A DNA stretch of 47,242 nt. It comes from a bacterium (GTDB lineage Bacteria > Bacteroidota > Ignavibacteria > SZUA-365). Position 1 is the first letter of the stretch; the number at the start of each line of letters is the position of its first letter. The position numbers and the translations under genes are program-made. The DNA lies in contig JAHLLD010000018.1 in assembly GCA_020444325.1 (NCBI GenBank), positions 1-47,242 on the forward strand, in the 5' to 3' direction. The notes under the pieces are model-generated. The model was not told where the DNA came from and ran no database searches. It saw only the letters and a program-made list of their open reading frames with translations. Of this stretch, positions 20,118-37,902 are shown piece after piece.

Positions 20118-20171
20118 ATGCAGTTTCTGCATAATTGCTCTCCTCATAATGGAATTATGCAGTTTCTGCAT
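20118..20171. repeat. Two copies of a 15-bp palindrome
   Basis: ATGCAGTTTCTGCAT occurs at 20118-20132 and again at 20157-20171, 39 nt apart start to start. Each copy is a perfect inverted repeat (ATGCAG-TTT-CTGCAT). The second overlaps the last codons and stop of the CHASE2 gene; the first lies in the gap before fecR. On the minus strand the first copy also holds an 8-codon ORF (starting MQKLHIGI) preceded by AGGAGA. Possible roles: operator, tandem binding sites or a duplicated remnant. Confidence 0.8.
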
Positions 20172-22161
20172 AAAAATCCAGGATTTCGACTACAGTCGAC
20201 CGGGACAAAACGGGTTCGCAGTTGGGACCGACACCGAAATACGCGGGATAAGGCTGCAATCCGTGCTGTTTTCGCATCAATCCGCCCAGAACAAAGAGCT
20301 CGTTTTTTCTGTGAAGTTTGCATTCCGCGTGGACACAGAGCGGTGAAAGACGGACTGGATGCGATTGATGTGTTCCTTTACGATAGACACCGGCACGGAG
20401 TTCCCGAAAAATGCCCTCTTCCTCCGGGGACAGGGTGAGTGTACCGAGTCCATGAGAGCGCCCATTATCATCAACCGTGAACAGCGGCACATCCAGGTAA
20501 CTACGAAGCAGCTGCTCCCAGAGCATGCGTACGCGTGGCAGCAGCAGTTCCCATTCGTCGAACACTACGAATTCATTGAATGTCTGCAGCTCAGTGGAAA
20601 GAAAGGCCTCCTTCACTGCACTTTCCCGCATACGTTCCTCTTTCTTTCCATCGAGAAAGAGCAGGAAATGTCGCAGTTCCCGCGCCATGTCGGTATCTGC
20701 CTGCAAACGTGCCGATAGCTCCGGGATGCGCTGCTGCCAGTCATCGAGCCTGGAATGCAATGCGGACGGTTTCCAATCCTCACGTGCTTCGGCTTCTGCG
20801 AGACAAACGGCATGTGCGAACACCGGCAACACCTCCGCTGCATGCAGCAGCCGCGTGTGTGCGATGAATGGCTCGTTGTCTTCAAAAGCGACACACATGA
20901 CTTCGGACAGCGGATTTGCCGTGTGGCACAGCGCGCGCCGTGTACTGTATTCCCGAATGCGAAAACGCAGCCACGTCGTAAACGCATTAGCCGGGATAAA
21001 CAGCAGTACGGCAGTCGCCATGAGGTTGTAACTGATCTTCAGATCGAAGTAGAAAAACGCGATAAGCGGCAGGAAAAAGACGATCACCGCTTCGGTAAAC
21101 AGTACCGTCGTGATCAAGACCGCAACGCCAAAGCGACCCGGTGGCTTGGTGCGCAGGATGCGGTACAGGGCGATACTGATATATGAGAGCAGGAAGGTCA
21201 ACAGCCAGTCTACCCATGGAGCCACGGGATGAATGAAACGGTGCTTGAGCAGCATGTCAATGACATTGGCATGAATCAGGACACCCGGCATGTCGGGACC
21301 TTCAATGCCGACTTTCTTCCCCATCGGTGTCTTATGCGTATCATCGAGAAAAAACAGTCCGCCTTCGTTGACATACCCCACGAGAACGATCGCATCTTTG
21401 AAAAATGAATCATACATGTTTCCCTGGAGCACATCGTCGATGGGGACACTGGGGATTTGTGTGAATGTCGAGCTGTAGTATATCACCTGCGGCTCTGAAG
21501 GCAGCGAGAGTACAGCCTCTGTAGCGGAGGGCTGCACCATGTCCAGCACTTTGACCGGGAAGCTCATCCAGCGTTCACCGTCCACTTCCGCCCATGGAAG
21601 GAAACGGCGGATGACACCATCGCGATCGGGCACGAGGTTCGCGAAGCCATAATTGTCGCACGCAGCACGAATCGGTGGTATTATTTCGAACGTGGGCTCA
21701 CAGGTCTCGAGATCAATGCCGCTTACAAGGACGGTATTCGGCACATTCTGCAGCGCAAGACGCAGGGCCTCAACCTCCATGAGGCGATCCTCTGGGAAGC
21801 GTTCGACGTGTAAATCATCGAGAATGATATCGAGTCCCACAACCGCCGCGCCGAGATCCTGCAACCGGTACAGCAGCGCAGCAATCTTGCCATCTGGCGT
21901 CGGAGCCACCTCCCCGATATTCACAACCTTGATGCGTTTGTCCGGAAACTCGGCGTAACGCACAGCGAAGATGGCGTCGAGACTGACGTCCGCAATATTG
22001 AGGAAGTCGATACGATCGAGGATAGGATTGAGAAAGGAGGTTTCATCCGCATCGGGCAACTGTTGCGAGATCATGATCATGACCTGCACGAGCAGCAGCA
22101 CAAGCAGTGAGGCCGCCAGATATTCCAGTCGGAAGAAATACTGGATCAGGCGCTTACGCAT
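20155..22161 (-). CDS. CHASE2 membrane sensor with unrecognised C-terminal domain
   Basis: A 668-residue membrane protein. One N-terminal helix (about 12-31) leads to an extracytoplasmic CHASE2 domain (about 40-310), recognised from RIKVVNIG...AALLYRLQDLGAAVVGLDIILDD, NYGFANLVPDRDGVIRRFLP and FKDAIVLVGYVN. Three membrane helices follow (about 316-334, 344-371 and 376-393). The remaining 270 residues should be cytoplasmic but contain no kinase, cyclase, GGDEF or HD motif that I can see. They carry a Cys/His cluster near the end: C609, H611, C614, H617 and C648, which might bind metal. Start at the ATG at 22161, weak ribosome site. The FecR-domain gene follows. A good promoter candidate lies upstream at 22198-22226. 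Confidence 0.8.
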   Translation of the reverse strand: MRKRLIQYFFRLEYLAASLLVLLLVQVMIMISQQLPDADETSFLNPILDRIDFLNIADVSLDAIFAVRYAEFPDKRIKVVNIGEVAPTPDGKIAALLYRLQDLGAAVVGLDIILDDLHVERFPEDRLMEVEALRLALQNVPNTVLVSGIDLETCEPTFEIIPPIRAACDNYGFANLVPDRDGVIRRFLPWAEVDGERWMSFPVKVLDMVQPSATEAVLSLPSEPQVIYYSSTFTQIPSVPIDDVLQGNMYDSFFKDAIVLVGYVNEGGLFFLDDTHKTPMGKKVGIEGPDMPGVLIHANVIDMLLKHRFIHPVAPWVDWLLTFLLSYISIALYRILRTKPPGRFGVAVLITTVLFTEAVIVFFLPLIAFFYFDLKISYNLMATAVLLFIPANAFTTWLRFRIREYSTRRALCHTANPLSEVMCVAFEDNEPFIAHTRLLHAAEVLPVFAHAVCLAEAEAREDWKPSALHSRLDDWQQRIPELSARLQADTDMARELRHFLLFLDGKKEERMRESAVKEAFLSTELQTFNEFVVFDEWELLLPRVRMLWEQLLRSYLDVPLFTVDDNGRSHGLGTLTLSPEEEGIFRELRAGVYRKGTHQSHPVRLSPLCVHAECKLHRKNELFVLGGLMRKQHGLQPYPAYFGVGPNCEPVLSRSTVVEILDFYAETA

Positions 22162-22305: not shown

Positions 22306-25300
22306 TCAGAATCCGTCGGAGAGGTCAAATCCGAACAGCATGCCGAAGTACCAGCGCCATTCCTTCCCATAGGTCACGTTGGCAAGCTGGAATTCGCGTG
22401 TAAACTCATCAATGCCGTAGGCACCGCTGAAAAAAATACGCGTCGGATACATGGAAAAGCTGAACGTCTCGAGCCGTAGTTCAAAGCCTACGTCCTTCTT
22501 CATACCTGAGACGGTGAACTGATCCGGAGCCATCACGGCATCGCCGACGTCCGCGAACACGCCTCCATATAGCTTGTCGAACAGGATATGACCGAGTCGA
22601 AGATCCATGCTCGATACAATCGGGAAACGGTAGGTCACCTGCGCGGTGGCGAGTTCGTTGCCGCCGAGTGCGTAATAGGTGTAACCCTGCATCCCGGTAA
22701 TACCGCCCGCGTAATAATTGAAGAAGTCGTCAACCTCTGGCCCGAGAATACTCGCGCCACGCAACCGGAGGGTAACGGAATGTCCCTGCCATGGCATTGC
22801 CGCGGCGAGCATCAAATGTCCGTCGAAACGGTGGAAATTGAAGTCCGTGTATATGGGAACAAGAATGCCGTTGCGAACTTCGGAATCCCCATTGGGATTG
22901 AAATTATTGAACTCGTAATCGTAATACAGTGTGAAACGCACACCGACGGGATTGATTTCGCGGTCGCGTGTCGGTACGAGATTGCGGTAGCGAAACACCG
23001 CGCTCAGGTCATTGCCGACAAAATACAGGTTGTCAGAGGCAGGGACGAGCTGGTCCGTGGTCGGCAGGCGGAACTGGCCGATGGTGCTGGTATAGCGGCT
23101 GTGCGTGTATCCCACCTCGAGCCGCATATGATTGTCGAAGAGGTTGTGCCCGAGTTTCGCGGAAAATGCAAGGAGGTTGAAATCCGCGTCGACACCGACG
23201 GTATCCCTGCTTCGAAGCTCGATATCGGTGGACGTGCCGCGCGTGACGTTGAACACTTCCAGTGAAAGATCAGGATACAGTCCCATACTGCTGAACAGCG
23301 GCAGGTCGTCGCGGAACGTGATATTCAGGTACAGGTCGCGTTCACCTTTGATGTTGATGGAACCGCTGGCCATGAATTCCACACGGTTCAGTACATCGGA
23401 CGAGTACATCATCAGTCCGGGCTTGAGCAGTTCAACACCGCTGTTGTCAGGATTGAACTCATCGATGCGAATCGTCGGAAAGTACATCATGCTCTGGAAC
23501 AGCCGTTCGTACGTGCTGGTCTCCTCGTACTTTGGCACCGATGAATCGTCAAAACTGTTAAGCGCCTCCCAATCCCATTCCGTGGGATCGACCGAAGCGA
23601 TCGGTGAAGAATACATTCCGGAAGGAAGATAGGTGTGCCCCGCAACGTCCAGCGGTTGTGCGTCGGGCAGTGATGCGATGCGGTATCCTCCTGCCGTATA
23701 TGCTGCATACAGCAGATCGCCATCAGCATTGACGGCCGGCATGAAGGCGCCGCCAACAACATTGGTGAGCACCGCATCCTCGCCGCGGTCTCCGAGCTCA
23801 TGGCGGTAGATGTTGAAAATCCCTGTCCTGTCCGAGGCGTAATAGATGGACCGGCCATCCTTACTGAAATGGGGATTCCGGGCATCCGCATGCATTTCCG
23901 CGATGAGTGGTTCGAAGCCGCTTCCGTCAGGATGCACACGGGCAATACCGCGCTGTACGCGTGGCGCATAGCCAAATACGATCCACTTCCCATCCGGCGA
24001 CCAGGTCGGTGTGAAGATCTGCTCGCCCGAGACAAAGCCGGTGACATTACGGAAGTTGCCGCCGTCCGCATCCACCAGCCCGAGATTCACCGTCCCGTCA
24101 TTTGCGAAGGCAAAGGCAATGCTGCTGCCATCCGGCGAGAAGCTCGGATTGAATGCGCGCAGTCCATTAGTAATTCGCGTCTCTTCCTCCGAATCGAGAT
24201 TGTACTCGTAAAGATCGTAGTAGAGATGACCGTAGACGGAGGGATCGTTGTAACGCGAGTACAGCAGGCGCTTGCCGTCGGGCGACCACGAGACGGTGGA
24301 CGACACGCCGGGCGTGAGCATACGCTCTTCCCCGCTTTCGATATCGTGGAGATAGATGGCAGACTGCCCGAAATAATCCGCGTACTTATTGGAGACGTAG
24401 GCGAAGGATTTCCCGTCCGGCGCCCAGGTGGGATAGAAGTTTCCGAACCCCACATCCGCGATGAGGTTGCCCTCCACACGCTTGCTCATCACCGGGGCGA
24501 TACGTTTTTCATATTCGGATTGAAGGTGCGTTTCCCAGTCATCATAAAGCTCCTGCCCCGAGACACCAAGTACGTCTTTGATGGCGGCATCCACCGTGAA
24601 GACAAAAGGATCGCTCATGTCACGTGTGATTTCCGGCAGCTTCTCTTCCCCGTACTTCTGCGCAATGTAGCGCGTGAGATTGTATCCCGCGTTGTACACG
24701 CTTTCGTTGCCGAGACTGGTTTTTCCAAAAGCGCTCATCTCACCCCAGGTGAGCATGCTGTCACTGAGCACATAGCTGCGAAGGATCATATCGCGATGCG
24801 AATCCCAGCTCTCATAGCCCAGGAGTCCACGCTGAAACTGCGCCGTCCCTTCCGCCATCCAGGGGGGTACGATGACGCCCGGGAAGGGATACGATACGAG
24901 TAGATTCGGATAGCCGTACAACACGTCGCGCCGTCGTTCCTTCTCGTAGCCAAACCATTGGAAGGTCAACGCGGGTATGCGGCGCCCGAATTTCATCGCC
25001 GCCTGTATCTGGATGATATGCGTAAACTCATGCGCGATGACATTCCGCAGCCAGTTGTGCGTGCCGCGAAGGTCGAAATCCAGCGGCGAAGCCCAAATCT
25101 CGATCTTGTTATTGAAGAAATACGCAGCGCCGTTCGAGTAATCCGAAATGTCCTTGACGATGAAACTCACGCGCGTGTCGGGTTCATGATCATACAGCGA
25201 GGTGATCGGACCGTACACATCCTCCGCCACCTTCGCGATGACGCGCGCCGTGCGCTCCGCGCCCTCGTGGTAATGCACGTAGAAATGCTTCGTGGTGATG

Positions 25301-25407
25301 GTGAACCAGTCCTTCTCCGGCGCGGAGTAGCTGTCGGGCTGCGCCAGCAGTGTTGCGGACGAGAGGGATATGACAAGGAGGGTCAGGAAAAACGTGCGTA
25401 ATTTCAT
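22306..25407 (-). CDS. Surface metallopeptidase-TolB propeller-outer membrane barrel fusion
   Basis: A 1033-residue protein with a signal peptide (about 1-22). A gluzincin-type peptidase domain follows (about 30-300): zinc motif HEFTH at 126-130 and WMAEGTAQF, which supplies E185 as the probable third ligand. A TolB/WD40-like beta-propeller comes next (about 320-600), with repeats such as FYPTWAPDGKSFAYVS, VSWSPDGKRLLYSR and NPSFSPDGSSIAFAF. The last 370 residues are rich in amphipathic strands and end WYFGMLFGFDLSDGF, typical of an outer-membrane beta-barrel. Together they suggest a peptidase tethered to the outer membrane by its own barrel. It begins 45 nt downstream of the M6-like gene and may share its transcript. 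Similar fusions occur in FCB genomes; substrate unknown. Confidence 0.8.
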   Translation of the reverse strand: MKLRTFFLTLLVISLSSATLLAQPDSYSAPEKDWFTITTKHFYVHYHEGAERTARVIAKVAEDVYGPITSLYDHEPDTRVSFIVKDISDYSNGAAYFFNNKIEIWASPLDFDLRGTHNWLRNVIAHEFTHIIQIQAAMKFGRRIPALTFQWFGYEKERRRDVLYGYPNLLVSYPFPGVIVPPWMAEGTAQFQRGLLGYESWDSHRDMILRSYVLSDSMLTWGEMSAFGKTSLGNESVYNAGYNLTRYIAQKYGEEKLPEITRDMSDPFVFTVDAAIKDVLGVSGQELYDDWETHLQSEYEKRIAPVMSKRVEGNLIADVGFGNFYPTWAPDGKSFAYVSNKYADYFGQSAIYLHDIESGEERMLTPGVSSTVSWSPDGKRLLYSRYNDPSVYGHLYYDLYEYNLDSEEETRITNGLRAFNPSFSPDGSSIAFAFANDGTVNLGLVDADGGNFRNVTGFVSGEQIFTPTWSPDGKWIVFGYAPRVQRGIARVHPDGSGFEPLIAEMHADARNPHFSKDGRSIYYASDRTGIFNIYRHELGDRGEDAVLTNVVGGAFMPAVNADGDLLYAAYTAGGYRIASLPDAQPLDVAGHTYLPSGMYSSPIASVDPTEWDWEALNSFDDSSVPKYEETSTYERLFQSMMYFPTIRIDEFNPDNSGVELLKPGLMMYSSDVLNRVEFMASGSINIKGERDLYLNITFRDDLPLFSSMGLYPDLSLEVFNVTRGTSTDIELRSRDTVGVDADFNLLAFSAKLGHNLFDNHMRLEVGYTHSRYTSTIGQFRLPTTDQLVPASDNLYFVGNDLSAVFRYRNLVPTRDREINPVGVRFTLYYDYEFNNFNPNGDSEVRNGILVPIYTDFNFHRFDGHLMLAAAMPWQGHSVTLRLRGASILGPEVDDFFNYYAGGITGMQGYTYYALGGNELATAQVTYRFPIVSSMDLRLGHILFDKLYGGVFADVGDAVMAPDQFTVSGMKKDVGFELRLETFSFSMYPTRIFFSGAYGIDEFTREFQLANVTYGKEWRWYFGMLFGFDLSDGF

Positions 25408-25452: not shown

Positions 25453-28400
25453 TTATTTGACAACTGCGATTTTGATGATTTTCTCTTCACTGCGGGATCC
25501 GGCCGTCACCTTCACGTGTGCGAGGTAAACATCGCTCTCGATGCCGCTGACATCCCAGGCGAGATCCGTGTCCACGCCACCGACGGCGGAACCGTTCACC
25601 TCGTCAACCTTGTCGCCGGCGAGATCATAGATTTTTACGTTGACGTCAGCGTCAACCGAGACATAGACGCGAATGTAACTGATATTATCGTATGTCGGAT
25701 TCGGCCAGGGATAACAACGCTGTTCGGGGAAGAAGTCCTCGGTGGGATTGCTGGCATTCGTCGTCTGAAGCACCGCGCAGTTGTTTCCGGCATTGGCCTG
25801 ACGCGAGCGCCACAGCAACTGATCGTCCGTCACAGCGTTCGCCGTCTCGAAAAGCAGGAGATTCCCGTTTGGCGAAGCCGCGGCAATGCCGAGCTTTCCG
25901 GAGGCGGTGCGCAGCAGTGCGACATCAGCCAGTGAAGGAATCGGTACGGGAAAACCGTCGGCATGATGAGCACCGGTCCTGAACTGCCAGACCTGCCGTT
26001 CGCCTACGCCGAACACCGCGTCACCTTCCTGTGATCCAAGATTCGCCGAAAGTGCGAAACGAATATCCTCTGAGACGGGATAATTATTGACGGTCGAGTA
26101 CGCATAATTCAGTGCGCGCAATTCGGTTCCACTGCTGAGCAGCGCATCCATGCGGCCGTCCCCGTCGACATCCGCCGCCGCGACATGAGGGATCGTAACG
26201 TTGTAAGGAAGTTTTGTTCCGAAGTCCTGAGAAGTCCGGACATTCTGGTCATCTGGACGGCTGAACAATACGGGATCTCCCCTCACAAAGTACATCGTTT
26301 CGATGTTGCCATCCCCGTCATAATCTGCTGCAGCTGAACTATGGTACGAGAAGATCGGGGCGTACGGCGTTTGAATACCGACATCATCATGCGCATCGAC
26401 GACACTCCCGTTCGTGACATCAAAGAGCACCGTAGGATATCCGCCTATCAACAATGCGAGGTGTTCATTCATCGCAACGATGCGATGCCCCGCGAACGGC
26501 GTGCGTACGCGAGGCAGATCCGGAGACCACAGACTCGCTGCTGTGGGATAGCGTGTGATATCGGAGGTAACGACATACATCGTGTCGTTGTCCGCACCCG
26601 CTGAGCGAAACAGAAGATGATTACCGACAAGCGTCGGCGGACAGAGGAGATAATTCCCGTTCTCCGCGGGGAACAAAAACTGCCGATCGATATCGAACAT
26701 GCCATCGTTATCGCTATCATCCGGAGAAAGCAGCCAGACATGTGCATCAACGTCGGTCAATACATCATTTTTCGTCACCAACGCAATTTCGGCGACACCA
26801 TCGCCGTCCCAATCTCCAACTGTGGGAGTCGTTGCGACACGCGCTGGGGAATCCACGAAACACAGCGCACCCGTGGAAAGAAATGGCGTCCCATCCTGCC
26901 GCAGAACGAACAGTTTTACACTGTCCGGCGGTAGTTCAGTGGTGGACGCCCCAGGCAGTGAATCACTGGCGAAGACGGCAAGAATCTCATCAATGCCATC
27001 CGCATCGAGATCCGCTGTCGTGATTGACACGCTGCGATTCTCGGCGAGAGAAGTGGACAGGTCCACCGGCCATCCTTCGAGGGGAGCGATGGTGTTGTCG
27101 CCGAGCGCGACATCGAGGGACATGATGGGGGCACTGGACGAAAAATTGTCCATGGTCACATGCGTGAACGCGCCGCTGTTTGCGCGGGTGTTCGGGGCGG
27201 TGAACATGCCGAAACTGTTGGTGTACACCGGGGAGATATTGTCTCGCCTCCAATAATCCAGTGCCGACCCGGTCCCGGTTTCGGTACCGAATACTGTTTC
27301 GATGTCTTCACCGATATCCTGTGGTCCACCGGCCTGCTCAAGGTCGACGCCCCGGGGATGGTCGCCCGTGTTGACGGAGTTCGATGACCGGTACGCAGTA
27401 ATGACACTTTCATCGATATGCCAGATGAGCAGTCCGCCGTTAATCCGCGCTTCCCTGTCGTCGGTCAGCACGCGTCCGCCCGGGAGGGACCAGTCAATAT
27501 CTTCGACATCGATGATGACACCCTTGAGCTGCGAGACGTCGCTGTTCTGAAAACCCGTGGTGTCTTTCGGGAAACGCAGCGTCTGCGTCTGTCCGCCCGA
27601 TACGATGGTCACACTCTGTCCGTTGCCGCCGAGATCACGCTGACGATTCTCCACCAGCCAGTACTCGTCGCCGCTGATCGGCACACGCAGCACATCCGGC
27701 GTGGTCAGCGAGTCGGATGCTGTCATCAGGTAATTGTTCTTTCCCGGCATGGCTTCGCGGGGAATGGTCCAGCCCAGCAGCTGTTTTTCCCAGGCTGAGG
27801 GTTCGGGGGGACAAATGCCGCCGTATGCGAAAATTCCTTCACCATCCATCAGTCCGAACCGTCCGATGCCCGTCTTCCCGGTCTCCGTGTCGAAGAGGTC
27901 GGGGAGACCGGCCCAGGTACCGAAACTCGCGGCGAGCAGTCCATTGGTGGTCAACTCCAGTAGTCCCGTCGATCCATCGATCAACGGGATTTCCCTGTTG
28001 TTGGTCGTGGGAATCACTGCGCAGTTGTTGATGGACGATCCATCCGGCATGGAAATCCCGCTGAAGCTGCTTCCCAACAGCCGCTGGAAACTTTCCATTG
28101 TAAACGAAAGCGACGGGATGTCGAGCGGTGTGGGATCATAGCCCTGGATGCTTACCAGGTCAATGTCTCTCCCCCGCCCGGCATGAAAGACGACGAACAT
28201 GTCATAGGCGCCGAAGGGGAAGGACGCAAACTGCTGTCCCGCTGCGGTCCATGCATCGACCGCCAGCTGCGCGACCGGGGATTCCGATTCCCCATCCTTG
28301 AAGCTGTATTCCCCGAGCGGCTTGTCCACGGTCACGATGCCGTCAAGCACAGTTCCTTTGAGGATGGTGCGACGACCGGAAACCTTACGTACATAGTTTT

Positions 28401-28731
28401 CGAGGAACAGCAGGTGCTGCTGAAAGAACGCCCTGTCGTGCGGCATGGGATCAAGGATTTCCGTGCCATAATCGTACTGGTATATCGTTCCGAATTTCCC
28501 CGTGCCGCTGGTGCGGTCATCCGCATCCTCCTGGAATTCAACCATGACGGCGAGAAGCCGGATGGTATCAGGCAGCGCTGCAGTCATCGCGACATCGGCA
28601 GTGCGATGGGGACTGAACGCATGGCTCAGCCGGGGTACCGCCCGTTCGGGCAACGGCTGTTGCTGCGCATGCAGCGAGACTGCTGCGAGAAGAATAAGGA
28701 GAAGGAAACCAAAGCCACGGATACGGAACAT
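25453..28731 (-). CDS. M6-type peptidase homologue with lost zinc motif, T9SS cargo
   Basis: A 1092-residue secreted protein. Signal peptide about 1-23; an M6 (immune inhibitor A-like) domain about 55-560; FG-GAP/VCBS-like beta-propeller repeats about 570-990, with calcium-loop-like DLDADGIDEI and DWDGDGVAEI; and a T9SS C-terminal sorting domain (about the last 85 residues: YPWPNPTYDN...KIYDLAGDKV, ending KIIKIAVVK). The segment equivalent to HEFGH-xxGLPDLYD reads A268-S-F-G-T272-WAGLPDLFD, so both zinc histidines and the catalytic Glu are absent, although the flanking family sequence (GLPDLFD, RFGLMDGEG, PSAWEKQLLGW) is kept. It is likely an inactive surface protein that binds rather than cuts. 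A ribosome site GGGA precedes the ATG. It lies downstream of the porV terminator. Confidence 0.85.
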   Translation of the reverse strand: MFRIRGFGFLLLILLAAVSLHAQQQPLPERAVPRLSHAFSPHRTADVAMTAALPDTIRLLAVMVEFQEDADDRTSGTGKFGTIYQYDYGTEILDPMPHDRAFFQQHLLFLENYVRKVSGRRTILKGTVLDGIVTVDKPLGEYSFKDGESESPVAQLAVDAWTAAGQQFASFPFGAYDMFVVFHAGRGRDIDLVSIQGYDPTPLDIPSLSFTMESFQRLLGSSFSGISMPDGSSINNCAVIPTTNNREIPLIDGSTGLLELTTNGLLAASFGTWAGLPDLFDTETGKTGIGRFGLMDGEGIFAYGGICPPEPSAWEKQLLGWTIPREAMPGKNNYLMTASDSLTTPDVLRVPISGDEYWLVENRQRDLGGNGQSVTIVSGGQTQTLRFPKDTTGFQNSDVSQLKGVIIDVEDIDWSLPGGRVLTDDREARINGGLLIWHIDESVITAYRSSNSVNTGDHPRGVDLEQAGGPQDIGEDIETVFGTETGTGSALDYWRRDNISPVYTNSFGMFTAPNTRANSGAFTHVTMDNFSSSAPIMSLDVALGDNTIAPLEGWPVDLSTSLAENRSVSITTADLDADGIDEILAVFASDSLPGASTTELPPDSVKLFVLRQDGTPFLSTGALCFVDSPARVATTPTVGDWDGDGVAEIALVTKNDVLTDVDAHVWLLSPDDSDNDGMFDIDRQFLFPAENGNYLLCPPTLVGNHLLFRSAGADNDTMYVVTSDITRYPTAASLWSPDLPRVRTPFAGHRIVAMNEHLALLIGGYPTVLFDVTNGSVVDAHDDVGIQTPYAPIFSYHSSAAADYDGDGNIETMYFVRGDPVLFSRPDDQNVRTSQDFGTKLPYNVTIPHVAAADVDGDGRMDALLSSGTELRALNYAYSTVNNYPVSEDIRFALSANLGSQEGDAVFGVGERQVWQFRTGAHHADGFPVPIPSLADVALLRTASGKLGIAAASPNGNLLLFETANAVTDDQLLWRSRQANAGNNCAVLQTTNASNPTEDFFPEQRCYPWPNPTYDNISYIRVYVSVDADVNVKIYDLAGDKVDEVNGSAVGGVDTDLAWDVSGIESDVYLAHVKVTAGSRSEEKIIKIAVVK

Positions 28732-28866: not shown

Positions 28867-30039
28867 TCAGTTCGCGGCGTCGTCAGCAGGAATACGCGTA
28901 CCGTCGTCTTCCGGTCCGCCAGCGCGGTTCCAGTTGACGGTGAGCGTAAAGCGCAGCGTTTCCGAAAGCGGACTCGGCGTGTCGTCGTCGGAAATCGCCG
29001 TGGAAATGTAGCTGAAGTCGAAACCGTAAATGTCGTAGCGCACGCCGGCACCGAAAGTCAGGAAGCGGCGGTTGCCCTGGGAGGGATCCTCATGGAAGAA
29101 TCCGAAACGCAGACCGACGAGCTGTGAGTACCAGTACTCAAAGCCCGTACCGAGCGTAAAGGTATTGAACACGTTGCCCGGTGTATCCCAGCTGCGGTAA
29201 ATCGCCTTGTAGAAGGGATCCGGCTGATCTTCGTCGTTCCTGCTGACGAGAAGTTTGGTCACATCCGTCGTCCAGGTGAGCGTATTGTACTTCTCATGCA
29301 CGAGATCGTACGCGAAGCCGATACGGAGTGCCGTGGGAAGAGGATCAGACTGCGCTTCGTCGATGTAACTGAGCGAAGGACCGATGTTGGTGATCGAGGC
29401 GCCGATCGCAAGCCTGTTGCCGATATCCGTATCGCTGAACGGCAGCGTGAGCTTCGAGGGACGATAGAGCACGCCGATATCGCCAGCAACTGCCGTCGCC
29501 GTACCGGAACCGGATTCGTGCGCGGTACCGATCTGGGAAAGACTCGAGTGGATCAGGCGAAGACCGACACCGATACCGAAGTCCTCATCCAGACGCGTGC
29601 CGTAGGATGCGGTGAAGGCGATCTCATAGCTCTTGAACGTTCCAAGAGAATTGTTACCCTCATCACGGCGCTCGAATTCACCGAGATTAAGATAGGTCAG
29701 CGCCGCACCGAGCGTACCGCCGGTGGAGGGCACATCCATCTTGTAGCCGGCGTACTCGAAAAAGAGATCACTCTGCTGGAACTGAGGGAGCCAGTTCGAG
29801 TGATTGAGACTGAGTTCCTGGCCTTTCTGGAAACCGAGACCGGCGGGATTCCAGAAAATTGCTGAAACGTCGTCCGCGATCGCAACACCGGCCTCACCCA
29901 TGGCGCTGTTGCGCGAGCTGGGGGAGATCAGCATGAAGGGCACGGCCGTGTTCGTTTGTGCCATCGCATCCTGCGCCAGGGGAAGCAGCAGCAGAAGCAC
30001 TGCGACGGAACAAAGAAGGGATTTGCTCTTGCGAATCAT
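28867..30039 (-). CDS. porV: Type IX secretion outer membrane protein PorV
   Basis: Outer-membrane beta-barrel of the T9SS. It shuttles cargo from the translocon to the PorU sortase and is needed for surface attachment. The 390 residues have a signal peptide (about 1-27, ending AMAQ) followed by the PorV/LptO-family N-terminus PFMLISPSSRNSAMGEAGVAIADDVSAIFWNPAGL and alternating barrel strands. The gene sits directly downstream of porU, the arrangement known from Porphyromonas gingivalis. GAGGA precedes the ATG, a candidate promoter lies 35-63 nt upstream, and a terminator follows, so it can be expressed independently of porU. Confidence 0.93.
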   Translation of the reverse strand: MIRKSKSLLCSVAVLLLLLPLAQDAMAQTNTAVPFMLISPSSRNSAMGEAGVAIADDVSAIFWNPAGLGFQKGQELSLNHSNWLPQFQQSDLFFEYAGYKMDVPSTGGTLGAALTYLNLGEFERRDEGNNSLGTFKSYEIAFTASYGTRLDEDFGIGVGLRLIHSSLSQIGTAHESGSGTATAVAGDIGVLYRPSKLTLPFSDTDIGNRLAIGASITNIGPSLSYIDEAQSDPLPTALRIGFAYDLVHEKYNTLTWTTDVTKLLVSRNDEDQPDPFYKAIYRSWDTPGNVFNTFTLGTGFEYWYSQLVGLRFGFFHEDPSQGNRRFLTFGAGVRYDIYGFDFSYISTAISDDDTPSPLSETLRFTLTVNWNRAGGPEDDGTRIPADDAAN

Positions 30040-30108: not shown

Positions 30109-33100
30109 TCAGCGTACCACGACCAGCCGGCCACTCACCTCGCTGCCCAGTGCGCCATCGGCAGTACGGCAGACGATACGGTAGAGGTACAGGTTGTTCG
30201 CGAGCGGTACACCGTCCACGCTGTTTCCATCCCACGGAATTTCCACCACACGGGTGGTTATCTCACCGGTGCGCAGATGCCTCACCAGCTGTCCGCTGGT
30301 GGCGTAGATCAGCACATCGACGATGACCGGGTCGAGCACGTTGTGCCGGAACGAGAAGGTGGTTCCACTGGAGACGGGATTGGGGTAGTTACTGATATCC
30401 TGTAATGACAGGCCACCCGTGACGTTGAACGCCGTTTCCACCGTGGTGGAGTTGTTGAAGATGTCCCATGCGCGCATGCGCAGCGTGTGATATCCCGGCG
30501 TGAGGTCGCGCATGCGAAACTCCACCGTCCCCTGCTGATAGGAGTCGATGTCTCCCCTGTAATAGCTGTTGAGCACGGTTCCCTTGCTCGAACCATCCAG
30601 CCAGATTTCAATGTCATGGCCGATACCGAGACCGGTCGTATTAATACCGCTCTCGTCGAACAGGTCGGCGATGAGCAGCGGATCCGTGCCGGTTTCATCG
30701 TCGCGCTGGAAGCTGCGGGTATCGAGGAAGACCGAAACATTCGGACCGGCGTTATCCGCGGTGGCACTGCTGTCTGAGCCGCCGACACGGAGGTCGAGAC
30801 TGAATCCTGCCCCGTCCACTTCGCCGTTTTCGAAATACATGGCGATGCGGCCGTTGTTGTTCTCGTAGCTGATGTCTTTCGGGACGATGAAATTGACCGC
30901 GAAACGGCCGTTGTCGACACTCGCCTGTCCGCGATACAGCAGTCCCCCAGGCATGGTGTATGTGAAATTATTCCAGCCGGGATCCTGTACCACGACGCGC
31001 CGCTGCGCATCGAAAAGACTCACTTCCGCGGTACCGTCGAAATCCATCCATACGCTGTCGTCAGGCTTCAGTATGCTGCCTTCGAGCGTGACGTTGCTCA
31101 ATGCCCGAAGCTGCACGGTGTCGGAGACTGCCGGCACGCCATTGATGAGGATGCGATCGACACGGGCGCGATAGCGCGGGAGCGCCAGCCGCAATCCAGG
31201 ATCCGCGAAGAGATGGAATTTCGCATATCCATCCACGCTGGATCCGAGGTTGACCTTCGCCGCATAAATGGCATCGCCCAGGCGCCGGGGCCGACCGTCC
31301 GATTCCCTTCCTTCATTGAGCAGACGCTTGAAAAATTCCGTATTGAAGGCGCTGTTCTCGGAAGAGAAGACGACACGCGGAGCGGAGAGCCCGCCGATGG
31401 AGCCGCCATGCTCATGCAGAAGCAGACGCTCTGTGCCGCTGCGGATTCCCGGTGCATCATACAGTCCGAAGGTGCATGTCGCAGCGGTCACGAAAGTAAG
31501 ACGATCATAGTTATTGAGCTGCGGTACGGTCACATCGGATACGAACACGCGTTCATGTGCCCAGATGTCGTGCGCGCCGTGCCCGGTGTAATTCATGATC
31601 AGCGTACCCTCGTTGATGCGATCGATAATCGCGGCATTGACGTCGGGTTTGCGCCTTCCCTGCGTGGTGATTTCCGTGCGGTATGACACGAGGTAAATTT
31701 TCTCCTGCTCGAGATCCGCCGGGATCATATCAGCGAGAGATTCTGACTGTCGTGTGTGCTCATTGGTGTCGGTATCGGCGGTGGACGTCCAGCCATCATC
31801 GCCAACGAACGTCACTTTGTTCTTCCACACCGCAAAATCGGGATCGGTCTCATAATGAATGATCTTGTCGATCACCGTATTGGCCTCTTCAACGGTCAGC
31901 ACGGTGATGCGTCCCGTTGCCAGATCGACCCTGGAGTCCGTCCCCACCACCATGGCGTAGTAATCGTCACTCGCATAGGTGCCGATACGGCTGGTGGAAT
32001 TTTCCGACTCCCAGACAGGAACGATGATGGGTTCCGGTGTCGTATGGTTACGGTAATCGAAATGTCCGTCACCGAACAACAGCACGTATTCCGGAGCGGT
32101 ACTCCAGTTCTCGACGGCCCAGGCCAGGAAATCCCTGATCGCCGTCGGATCCTTCACCCCGCTGTTGAAAGAATTGTAGATATCCTCAACCGTCACGACC
32201 ATGCTGCTGATGGGATCCTCTGCGCGCTCGCGGTGGGTTTTCAACCGCTGTGCCGGCTGTGCCAGCTCCCGGTTGGTGATGATCAGGTAGCGTGCGCCAC
32301 TGCTGCTCAGCAAATCGTTGTTCGCCACCTGTGCCGGAGCGCCGGGGGTTTTCATCGCCGGCGAAGCGACGGCAAGGAAGCGTCGCGGCGCGCCATTGTC
32401 AACGGCAACACGAAAACGCACCGTCCCGCCGGAGATATCCACGCCGGACATACGGCGGACATTCCGGTAATCGGTCACATCGTAGACGATGATGTCAGAC
32501 ATGGTATAGCCGTTGAGCACGAAAGCGATGTTCCCGGCCGTATCAGGCGATGAGAACAGCAATTCGTTGTTGAGTGGCTCAAAACGCCGGGCATAATGCC
32601 ACTCCACCCAGTCGACATATCCACCTCGAACGCTCTCTGTGTTTGCGGCCTGGTAGGTCATGGTCAGTGTTGATCGGTCGTCGGCAAGATTCCCGCTCCC
32701 TTCGAGATCACGCGTCACGATCTTTGCGAGAGATCCGGTCTCGGTGCCGAAATCGACCGTCCCCATTCCGATCACGCTGAGTGGCTGGTCATTCGCACGC
32801 ACACTGAAGCTGTTCTCGACTTCGGAGCTCGAAACGAGCCGCAGACGATACCCCACCGGCCGGGTGGAGACAAGTCCGTGCAGTTTCCGCGTCAGGACGA
32901 GATCGGAAGCACTGCCCGCGTTGGGTACGAGGCGCTTGCCGACCCAGAGCCTCCCGGAATTCAGCAGATTGTTTTCCTCGGATTCATCGAACAGAACTTC
33001 GGGAAAGTTCTGCGGGGTTGCGGCTTCGGTCTGCGGATCGAGAACGTCCTCATATTCCATGCGCCGCCCCTCGGCTCCGCCGAAGGTCAACAGATAGCGG

Positions 33101-34104
33101 TTCGTCTCATCGAAACGGTGAATGTAATGTGCATAACGCCTTTCAGAGGGATTCCATTCGAGTCCGCTCAGTCCCTGCCCGTAAAATTGAATGTAATCCT
33201 CACCATCGAACCGGCCGTCTTCTTCACCGATCACTTCGATGGGAATTTCCTGCAGGGGATCGGGACGGGACGCAGCGAGGTCAGGATTCCTTTCCTTTCC
33301 GCCATTACTGTAAATCTTTAAAGTGCGCGGATCGAAGCTGCCGGGATCAATACCCGCATCACGGAACCAGTTCGCGTAAATGCGGTACATTCCTGTTTCC
33401 CCGATCTCAAAACGATACCACTGTCCGTCCGCCATGGTTGGTGATGCGGTGCTGCGCAACAGGTTGTGCTGGCGTGGGACATTCCATGCTGCGGCCTGTA
33501 CGGGATTGAGAACATCCACGATAGGTGCGCTTCCCTGCTGGAGGCCGCTCTCGGCCGTGCCGAAATGCAGACGGAAGCGAATGCGCGTGTACACCCTGGC
33601 GATGCGGGTTACGGGATTCCACCGCACGGGATACAGCTGAAGATCTGCGATGATATGCGAACGGGACCTGCCCAGATTCGCAACCTGCACGCAGTTTGCA
33701 GGCAGAAGCCCGTCAATCTGGTAGCCGAGGCCCTCCTCGTAGATGTATTCTTCCTTCCCCTCTGGTGTCAGGCGAATGTCCGCAACGGGAAGAAGATTGA
33801 GAGGACCTTCCTCGCGGTAATCCACCTGCAGAATATCAATGTCGGGATTTGCCATGGACGGCAGTGCAACCAGTTCCTTCCTGTAGCGAAGGTCTGGCAT
33901 GCCGGCCCTTGAAATGTCGCCGGTGACGGAACCGTTGAAAGTGAATACCACACCATCCGCATCAGGGTGATCCATGGAAACTGCAGGACGATACTCCACG
34001 ACCATACTTTCAGTATCCGCTGAAAGCACGACCACTTCCTGTGCGGCCAGCTGACCGCTGAGGACGAGGGAAAGGGGAAGGACCAAGAGCAAAGACTTCA
34101 GCAT
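30109..34104 (-). CDS. porU: Type IX secretion sortase PorU (C25 family)
   Basis: Surface cysteine peptidase that removes the C-terminal sorting domain from T9SS cargo and links the product to a lipid-carried glycan. The 1331 residues from the ATG at 34104 include a signal peptide (about 1-21, ending LAAQ) and a long beta-rich N-terminal region. The C25 catalytic domain has H842 in NYTGHGAHD and C877 in TAATCTFG, followed by GGSIGGLSAPRVVFSS. The C-terminus carries a sorting-domain-like segment beginning YPNPVSSGTTFSF. A longer reading starts at 34242 inside the flippase gene, but the signal peptide and AGG ribosome site favour 34104. It is 73 nt downstream of the flippase gene and upstream of porV. 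Confidence 0.93.
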   Translation of the reverse strand: MLKSLLLVLPLSLVLSGQLAAQEVVVLSADTESMVVEYRPAVSMDHPDADGVVFTFNGSVTGDISRAGMPDLRYRKELVALPSMANPDIDILQVDYREEGPLNLLPVADIRLTPEGKEEYIYEEGLGYQIDGLLPANCVQVANLGRSRSHIIADLQLYPVRWNPVTRIARVYTRIRFRLHFGTAESGLQQGSAPIVDVLNPVQAAAWNVPRQHNLLRSTASPTMADGQWYRFEIGETGMYRIYANWFRDAGIDPGSFDPRTLKIYSNGGKERNPDLAASRPDPLQEIPIEVIGEEDGRFDGEDYIQFYGQGLSGLEWNPSERRYAHYIHRFDETNRYLLTFGGAEGRRMEYEDVLDPQTEAATPQNFPEVLFDESEENNLLNSGRLWVGKRLVPNAGSASDLVLTRKLHGLVSTRPVGYRLRLVSSSEVENSFSVRANDQPLSVIGMGTVDFGTETGSLAKIVTRDLEGSGNLADDRSTLTMTYQAANTESVRGGYVDWVEWHYARRFEPLNNELLFSSPDTAGNIAFVLNGYTMSDIIVYDVTDYRNVRRMSGVDISGGTVRFRVAVDNGAPRRFLAVASPAMKTPGAPAQVANNDLLSSSGARYLIITNRELAQPAQRLKTHRERAEDPISSMVVTVEDIYNSFNSGVKDPTAIRDFLAWAVENWSTAPEYVLLFGDGHFDYRNHTTPEPIIVPVWESENSTSRIGTYASDDYYAMVVGTDSRVDLATGRITVLTVEEANTVIDKIIHYETDPDFAVWKNKVTFVGDDGWTSTADTDTNEHTRQSESLADMIPADLEQEKIYLVSYRTEITTQGRRKPDVNAAIIDRINEGTLIMNYTGHGAHDIWAHERVFVSDVTVPQLNNYDRLTFVTAATCTFGLYDAPGIRSGTERLLLHEHGGSIGGLSAPRVVFSSENSAFNTEFFKRLLNEGRESDGRPRRLGDAIYAAKVNLGSSVDGYAKFHLFADPGLRLALPRYRARVDRILINGVPAVSDTVQLRALSNVTLEGSILKPDDSVWMDFDGTAEVSLFDAQRRVVVQDPGWNNFTYTMPGGLLYRGQASVDNGRFAVNFIVPKDISYENNNGRIAMYFENGEVDGAGFSLDLRVGGSDSSATADNAGPNVSVFLDTRSFQRDDETGTDPLLIADLFDESGINTTGLGIGHDIEIWLDGSSKGTVLNSYYRGDIDSYQQGTVEFRMRDLTPGYHTLRMRAWDIFNNSTTVETAFNVTGGLSLQDISNYPNPVSSGTTFSFRHNVLDPVIVDVLIYATSGQLVRHLRTGEITTRVVEIPWDGNSVDGVPLANNLYLYRIVCRTADGALGSEVSGRLVVVR

Positions 34105-34177
34105 ATGCACCTGCTTTTTCCGTTGTGACGACACCCCGCAACCTGCCATATCAATTGACATGAAACAATTCCAAAAC

Positions 34178-35575
34178 TCATCCATGACGCATATCCTCCT
34201 CCGTGTGTGCAAACGCCTCCGATGGCGCTGCAGCCCCCCCACCGACTGTACGCCGATAGAAATACAGGTTCATGACGATGTTCACTGCGTAGGTCGCAAC
34301 GAACGCGATTGCCGCACCTGTCATCGCGAGAATCGGGATCAGAACAATGTTGAGTGCGATATTGACCGAGGAACTGCTGATGGACATGATGCGGATGGCG
34401 CGTCCCTGCCGGTGCGCCGCCAGGAAGGAATGAAACGGGTGGTTGAGTCCCGCCAGTCCGAAACCCGCGGCTATCCATGGCAGCACTGTCAGAGCTTCGT
34501 CGTAACGGTCTGTAAAGAAAAGCGGTACCAGCACCTGTGCGGCAGCCCAGAGAAGAAGTGCACCCAGTGTCGACCAGGCCACGGTTGCGGCGAGCAGGCG
34601 GCCCGGGATGCGCTGTTCGACGACGAACCGCTTGTAGGCACTATGCGAAACAGCCTTGCTGAACATCCCTATCGGCGTGCTCATCGTCATGGCGATGGCA
34701 TAGAAGCCGACAGGACTCATACCGTGGAAAAAACCGAGCAGCAGCTTGTCGAGTCCCGTGGTGAGTCCGTCCACCACGCGTCCCGCGTAGACTTCCCTGC
34801 CGAATTCCCGGACTTCCCTGCGGATGCGTTTGAATTCCTGTCCCAGTCCCCGGAACGACGGGGTCATGAAACTGATTGCGATACCTATCGCGGCGCCGAG
34901 GGACATCAGTGTGGCGAACACCGCCGTGCGCACGTCTATCCCTCCCTGCCAGACGAGCACGAGCAGGAGTGCGAGAAGCAGTATTCGAGGAAGCAGGAGG
35001 AAACCGCTCATCAGTTTCATGCGACTGCTGCCCTGGCTGATGCTGAGCACCATTTCCTGCAGGGGATACACCGCCGCCAACGGCGCGGCCAGCCGCAGGA
35101 TGCTGCCTGCTTCCCCATGCGGCCACCAGGCATCGATGCCGAAAGAAATACCGAACACGGCAACGGCAAAGAGAATGCCTATTCCCGAGGAAAGCATCAG
35201 CAGCGCACCTGCGCGCAGTGAGAACGAAGCTTTATCCTCGACCATCGCCATAAGGCGCATGCCGGCAGGAGCGAGTCCGAAATCGAAAAACACGCCTGAG
35301 AAAAGGAATACCGCCACGATGAAACTGTAGGTCCCGAAGCTCTCAACCGCCATCGACCGCGTCAGTATCATGTACACCAGCAGTCCCAGTACCATGTTCA
35401 GCGCGAGTGCCGCAAAGTACATGGAGGATTTCCTCCCCAGCTCCGTGCGGAAAAGCGCGGGTATGTCACGTGGTCCGATCATGCGTACGGGTGCGAAGCT
35501 CGCATGACGCGGGAGCCGTGAAAATATCCAATGTGTTCGGAGTACTTTCCGAAATACGACAGGTACAGTAGACAT
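34178..35575 (-). CDS. Polysaccharide/oligosaccharide flippase family membrane protein
   Basis: A 465-residue inner-membrane protein with about 12-14 predicted helices, of the Wzx/MATE-like flippase superfamily that moves lipid-linked glycans across the membrane. The N-terminal LNMVLGLLVYMILTRSMAVESFGTYSFIVAVFLFSGVFFDFGL is characteristic. The start is uncertain: an ATG at 35575 with GGA close by gives an extra polar N-terminus, while the ATG at 35482 (MIGPRDIPAL) would remove 31 residues and look more like the family. It precedes porU by 73 nt with no terminator between them, so co-expression is likely. PorU ligates cargo to an A-LPS-type glycan in P. gingivalis, which makes an adjacent flippase functionally suggestive, though unproven. 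Confidence 0.82.
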   Translation of the reverse strand: MSTVPVVFRKVLRTHWIFSRLPRHASFAPVRMIGPRDIPALFRTELGRKSSMYFAALALNMVLGLLVYMILTRSMAVESFGTYSFIVAVFLFSGVFFDFGLAPAGMRLMAMVEDKASFSLRAGALLMLSSGIGILFAVAVFGISFGIDAWWPHGEAGSILRLAAPLAAVYPLQEMVLSISQGSSRMKLMSGFLLLPRILLLALLLVLVWQGGIDVRTAVFATLMSLGAAIGIAISFMTPSFRGLGQEFKRIRREVREFGREVYAGRVVDGLTTGLDKLLLGFFHGMSPVGFYAIAMTMSTPIGMFSKAVSHSAYKRFVVEQRIPGRLLAATVAWSTLGALLLWAAAQVLVPLFFTDRYDEALTVLPWIAAGFGLAGLNHPFHSFLAAHRQGRAIRIMSISSSSVNIALNIVLIPILAMTGAAIAFVATYAVNIVMNLYFYRRTVGGGAAAPSEAFAHTEEDMRHG

Positions 35576-37654: not shown

Positions 37655-37729
37655 GGGGCTGTAGCTCAGTGGTAGAGCATCTGCCTTTTAAGCAGAGGGT
37701 CGATGGTTCGAGCCCATCCAGCCTCACCA
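37655..37729 (+). tRNA. tRNA-Lys (anticodon TTT)
   Basis: A complete cloverleaf. The acceptor stem is GGGGCTG/CAGCCTC (one G-U pair), the anticodon stem TCTGC/GCAGA closes the loop CTTTTAA with anticodon TTT, and the T stem is GATGG/CCATC with loop TTCGAGC. The 3' CCA is encoded. Confidence 0.96.
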
Positions 37730-37740
37730 AAAAGTTGAAT

Positions 37741-37824
37741 GCGGAAGTGGTGAAATTGGCAGACACACCATCTTGAGGGGGTGGCGCTCGAAAGGGCATG
37801 CGGGTTCAAGTCCCGCCTTCCGCA
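37741..37824 (+). tRNA. tRNA-Leu (anticodon GAG)
   Basis: A class II tRNA with a long variable arm. The acceptor stem is GCGGAAG/CTTCCGC, the anticodon stem CCATC/GGTGG closes loop TTGAGGG (anticodon GAG), and the T stem is GCGGG/CCCGC. The discriminator A is followed by CAA, so the 3' CCA is not encoded and must be added enzymatically, unlike the tRNA-Lys next to it. Confidence 0.95.
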
Positions 37825-37902
37825 CAACTCTCTTTTACACTGCAAGTCTCGCCGAACTGCTCTTCAATGTTCCACAGCAAGAAGGCGTAAGGAGTCAGAA
37901 TC

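Follow-up and report, generated by a model that had tools for sequence, protein, structure and literature searches.

The window, that is, the whole 47,242-nucleotide stretch of DNA analysed, carries on its minus strand the genes porU, porV, M6i and MAprop, in this order. M6i (25453–28731, minus strand) is a protein of 1092 residues with an ATG start, an M6-like inactivated metalloprotease homologue of the family NF052323 and a T9SS type A cargo. Directly upstream lies porV (28867–30039, minus strand), which encodes the T9SS outer-membrane carrier or shuttle, preceded by porU (30109–34242, minus strand; the start is as listed and the gene may begin later), which encodes the sortase, a C25 protein. 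Downstream of M6i, MAprop (22306–25407, minus strand; 1033 residues) combines a Peptidase_MA_2 domain with a TolB-like propeller and a barrel resembling that of BamA. A CHASE2-domain protein, in which Pfam recognises no output domain, is encoded downstream of MAprop (20155–22161, minus strand), and adjacent tRNA-Lys(ttt) and tRNA-Leu(gag) genes are found on the plus strand at 37655–37825.

All the features of M6i lie on the minus strand. By inspection, the protein starts with a signal peptide of 22 residues (28666–28731), MFRIRGFGFLLLILLAAVSLHA|QQQ, with a predicted cleavage LHA|QQQ; residues 5–21 form a helix in the structural model. The M6-fold domain (residues 53–545, 27097–28575), as aligned with immune inhibitor A2, is followed by a poorly conserved FG-GAP β-propeller (residues about 546–1000, 25732–27096), which the domain search and the model place at about residues 546–966. 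The C-terminal T9SS sorting domain (residues 1001–1092, 25456–25731) is as conserved as the M6 domain, and its WPNP motif is conserved across the family. It scores 23.0 bits against TIGR04183, which is just the cut-off of 23 for a type A sorting domain, and 22.1 bits against Pfam PF18962, under the cut-off of 27.

At residues 268–281 (27889–27930), M6i reads ASFGTWAGLPDLFD where M6 peptidases have HEFGHxxGLPDLYD, with ASFGT in place of HEFGH. An earlier reading of the sequence alone (the sequence-only reading) had noticed this replacement of the zinc motif within 27880–27940, and it is borne out. Since that reading left room for an HExxH elsewhere in the fold, the whole protein was scanned: it contains neither an HE dipeptide nor HxxxH, which rules out a displaced motif and leaves M6i without the HExxH of active M6 proteins. 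The other reservation, that the change could be an isolated mutation, was addressed with 129 aligned homologues, which span the phylum from the genus of the window out to remote families. None of them keeps either zinc histidine or the catalytic glutamate. The position of the first histidine is occupied by Ala (115), Ser (8), Gly (5) or Asn (1), that of the glutamate by Ser, Thr, Met, Asn or Gln, and that of the second histidine by Ser (91), Thr (19), Asn (18) or Gly (1). As all 129 copies agree and the reading frames are intact, an isolated mutation or a recent pseudogene is ruled out.

The surroundings of the lost site are retained. The aspartate of GLPD (Asp278), which we take to occupy the place of the third ligand in metzincin-type HExxHxxGxxH/D motifs, and the upstream Asn263 are each found in 129/129 homologues, and the methionine of the Met-turn is kept in 126 of them. 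The zinc site is lost across the whole family; the loss is old and fixed, and the fold is still constrained. As the sequence-only reading had proposed, M6i is, as far as its sequence tells, a maintained pseudoenzyme with a site predicted to be inactive: the fold is kept, the loss is family-wide, and the signal peptide, the propeller and the T9SS sorting domain are all present.

The AlphaFold model of M6i (55 sequences, mean pLDDT 88, pTM 0.86) preserves the motif helix (residues 263–273). Its top Foldseek matches are immune inhibitor A2, on which residues 32–544 superpose with a Z score of 21.6 and an rmsd of 3.2 over 372 residues (4YU5, 19% identity). A sequence-profile search of solved structures returned nothing relevant, so that immune inhibitor A2 is reached by fold comparison only. 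The M6-domain model TIGR03296 matches M6i with 41.7 bits (E 1.2e-10), under its cut-off of 110.8 bits, and PF05547 (Peptidase_M6) is not listed at E values up to 1, whereas bona fide M6 proteases from this clade exceed both cut-offs. Related genomes encode active-type M6 proteins with HEFGHIFGLPDLYD and a sorting domain of their own, which align with M6i over the whole domain. The alignment of M6i with M6 proteins is therefore not due to chance, considering these same-clade proteases, the TIGR03296 match and the alignment of the model with immune inhibitor A2. M6i shares with the M6 peptidases (PF05547, TIGR03296; immune inhibitor A2, PDB 4YU5/4YU6) the fold, the aspartate of GLPD, the Met-turn, HAG and WHxD, but it lacks HExxH, falls below both curated cut-offs, has GRD instead of GAE and LMD instead of LMA, and contains a conserved insert of its own (about residues 368–415).

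The pseudoenzyme family is not new: it is already named 'T9SS-dependent M6-like inactivated metalloprotease' (NCBIfam NF052323, T9SSA_dep_M6i), and the whole of M6i matches it with 716.9 bits (E 4.2e-215, cut-off 600). The signal peptide, the degenerate M6 domain and the sorting domain are those of the family, with no difference at the family level; M6i belongs to it and comes from a lineage related to Ignavibacteria, and the family name carries no function. A search for publications on the function of M6i, or on the PorU2 and PorV2 families, found none among the papers covered. Four loci of one family (L151–L154, f22) encode divergent homologues that score under the NF052323 cut-off (e.g., 441 of 600 bits for L151); the operon and the lost motif are the same as for M6i, and the curated model misses this branch.

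What is new is the near-constant tie between M6i and porV, together with a distribution that matches that of MAprop. The gene neighbourhood was compared at 80 named M6i loci, from MAGs labelled Ignavibacteria, Chlorobiota, Bacteroidetes and relatives. In 75 of the 76 loci with enough flanking sequence (75/80 overall), porV is immediately upstream of M6i; of the five others, four end at a contig edge and one (L064) has porU and no porV frame. PorU is encoded at all 66 loci with more than 2 kb upstream. MAprop is the next gene after M6i in 62/80 loci by the cut used, which missed a few more through overlap. The order porU–porV–M6i–MAprop is found in five families (f21, f22, f32, f33 and f41) and also, with a wider gap ahead of MAprop, in f29 (G087) and f4 (G141). 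In f25 and f40, porV and M6i are paired in three of four loci and MAprop is elsewhere. In G064 (L142, 295–8990), the porV–M6i pair is inverted with respect to porU, which suggests that it travels as a unit. Since the pair persists in f25 and f40 without an adjacent MAprop, and is inverted as a pair in G064, porV–M6i is the tightest gene link. Gene association with porU and porV, as expected of a part of the T9SS attachment complex, is thus found for M6i.

MAprop has an intact HEFTH (residues 126–130), and HExxH is present in 67/67 copies. Its C-terminal barrel resembles BamA (8XNB, TMt 0.64); from this Omp85-like barrel, the peptidase domain would be expected to face the periplasm. No NCBIfam equivalog names MAprop, which has no curated family name; within the cluster, it may be the gene of greater interest.

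M6i is encoded in 61 of 148 genomes of the phylum, as a single copy, and MAprop is found in exactly those 61. All 61 encode the SprA translocon; both proteins are absent from the 31 SprA-negative genomes (31/31) and from 56 of the 117 SprA-positive ones. The match between M6i and MAprop also holds in a set of 61 closer relatives if weak partial matches (~110–130 bits) in genomes without M6i are disregarded; five genomes, G019 and four of f15, carry the two genes on different contigs. Among SprA-positive genomes, Fisher's test for the association of M6i and MAprop gives 9e-35, with genomes that are not independent. Indeed, one or two changes on a PorU tree suffice to explain the absence of M6i within the class, and the SprA-less family f27 adds one more: the co-occurrence is clade-structured, and the pattern across the 148 genomes goes back to no more than a few independent gains or losses. 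M6i is not a core part of the T9SS, since many T9SS genomes lack it. Nor is it present wherever PorU works, many PorU-positive genomes being devoid of M6i.

Four genomes of f33 that are 99–100% complete (G108, G127, G152 and G163) encode SprA, M6i and MAprop, with porV seen in G152 (L136), but PorU was not found in any of the four. A strict dependence of M6i on PorU is thereby ruled out. A PorU2-like protein (NF052324) acting as a substitute was sought in the same four genomes, and none was found at E 1e-30. They still encode 7–33 sorting-domain proteins each, which rules out a T9SS that exports M6i alone; G108 has 8, compared to 66 in G134, which is of the same genus. A role of M6i that is limited to PorU-dependent attachment does not fit with these four genomes, which keep M6i and MAprop without PorU. 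They argue that M6i would serve the carrier or the translocon rather than the sortase step.

The constraint on each protein was compared by mean pairwise identity at 66 loci that have all four genes. In M6i, the M6 domain has an identity of 0.46 and the sorting domain one of 0.48, compared to 0.43 for the catalytic domain of PorU, 0.51 for PorV and 0.60 for the peptidase domain of MAprop. The fold and the sorting domain of M6i are thus kept like machinery proteins, given that their identities are comparable to those of PorU and PorV. With an identity of only 0.20, the propeller is the sole part of M6i that drifts.

As judged from sequence comparisons, the distribution and the linkage of M6i would be the pattern of a part of the machinery. 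PorV is the carrier for type A proteins (PMC5562754, PMC10994853), and the sorting domains of PorU and PorZ stay on the proteins (PMC11285876, PMC8545088). We propose that M6i belongs to the PorV/T9SS surface machinery, either as a structural, docking or adaptor component that holds a ligand uncut or as a partner of MAprop; we put this at somewhat better than even. M6i would be exported through the SprA translocon by means of its own sorting domain. PorV and this conserved C-terminal domain, retained as in PorU and PorZ, may then hold it at the outer membrane. The emptied protease cleft could bind a peptide or a surface ligand without cutting it, and M6i would serve newly exported proteins as a docking site or adaptor, or else be the partner of MAprop. 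In the latter pairing, the proteolysis would be supplied by MAprop.

The sequence-only reading had favoured a binder, a decoy or an adhesin. M6i would then be ordinary T9SS cargo, binding external ligands at the cell surface via its cleft and its propeller. A signal peptide, a type A sorting domain and an FG-GAP propeller are indeed an architecture common in displayed cargo; the propeller varies freely, as a ligand-facing part might, and part of the observed pattern would also be expected from a cargo gene located in the operon by chance. However, M6i is a single-copy gene with a fixed place next to porV, absent from SprA-less genomes and co-inherited with MAprop, with an identical distribution. 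Its core and its sorting domain are conserved, unlike a fast-evolving display module, and it is kept in genomes with just 7–8 sorting-domain proteins (G108, G127). This part of the earlier proposal therefore does not hold up well, and we consider ordinary cargo unlikely. Rather improbable, too, is a role of M6i devoted to MAprop alone, as a regulator that restrains it or as a receptor that binds its substrate, the link to the T9SS being indirect. The closest gene link of M6i is with porV and not with MAprop, and the BamA-like barrel would put the MAprop peptidase in the periplasm, while M6i is expected outside the cell. This must be set against distributions that match exactly in 148 genomes, including the unlinked cases, and against the presence of HExxH in every copy of MAprop examined and never in M6i.

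It is very unlikely that M6i has kept an enzymatic activity by means of a different metal arrangement or a different chemistry at the altered site. The strict or nearly strict conservation of Asn263, Asp278, Asp296 and Glu361 could be read in this way, but the site has not gained a conserved His, Cys or Glu, small or non-ligand residues occupy the three lost positions, and the conserved H183 and H438 are common to active M6 proteins. Least credible of all is a replacement of PorZ by M6i as the part of the attachment complex that delivers LPS. The two proteins have a similar type of architecture (propeller and sorting domain), and PorZ (5M11) is among the Foldseek matches of the M6i model, but the domain search does not detect the N-terminal propeller of PorZ (PF21544) in M6i, and 56 of 61 genomes, among them the window's own (G000:C2:171062-171517), have a separate PorZ (PF21544) at another locus in addition to M6i, which rules out M6i as a PorZ substitute.

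M6i, as the proposed docking or adaptor part, resembles the components of the T9SS attachment complex (PorU, PorV, PorQ and PorZ) in that it adjoins porV and porU and has its own sorting domain, like PorU and PorZ. It differs from them in that it is not among the known components, is missing from many T9SS genomes and is kept in four genomes without PorU. A precedent for the structural use of an enzyme fold in the T9SS is PorK (PMC12421860), which has the repurposed fold of a formylglycine-generating enzyme and belongs to a periplasmic ring, whereas a structural role of M6i is inferred only. If the proposal is correct, M6i would follow PorK as a second example of an enzyme fold co-opted by the T9SS.

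Nearly all knowledge of the T9SS comes from Porphyromonas and Flavobacterium. Should M6i and MAprop belong to the T9SS elsewhere in the phylum, its outer-surface half would differ between lineages. In the four genomes devoid of PorU, a type A pathway would have to keep its cargo or let it go in the absence of the known sortase. The genome of the window itself encodes two more large C25 proteins of ~1780 residues (G000:C2:216887-219430 and G000:C4:76224-78677), which match PorU2 (NF052324) with 276–308 bits, under the cut-off of 450.
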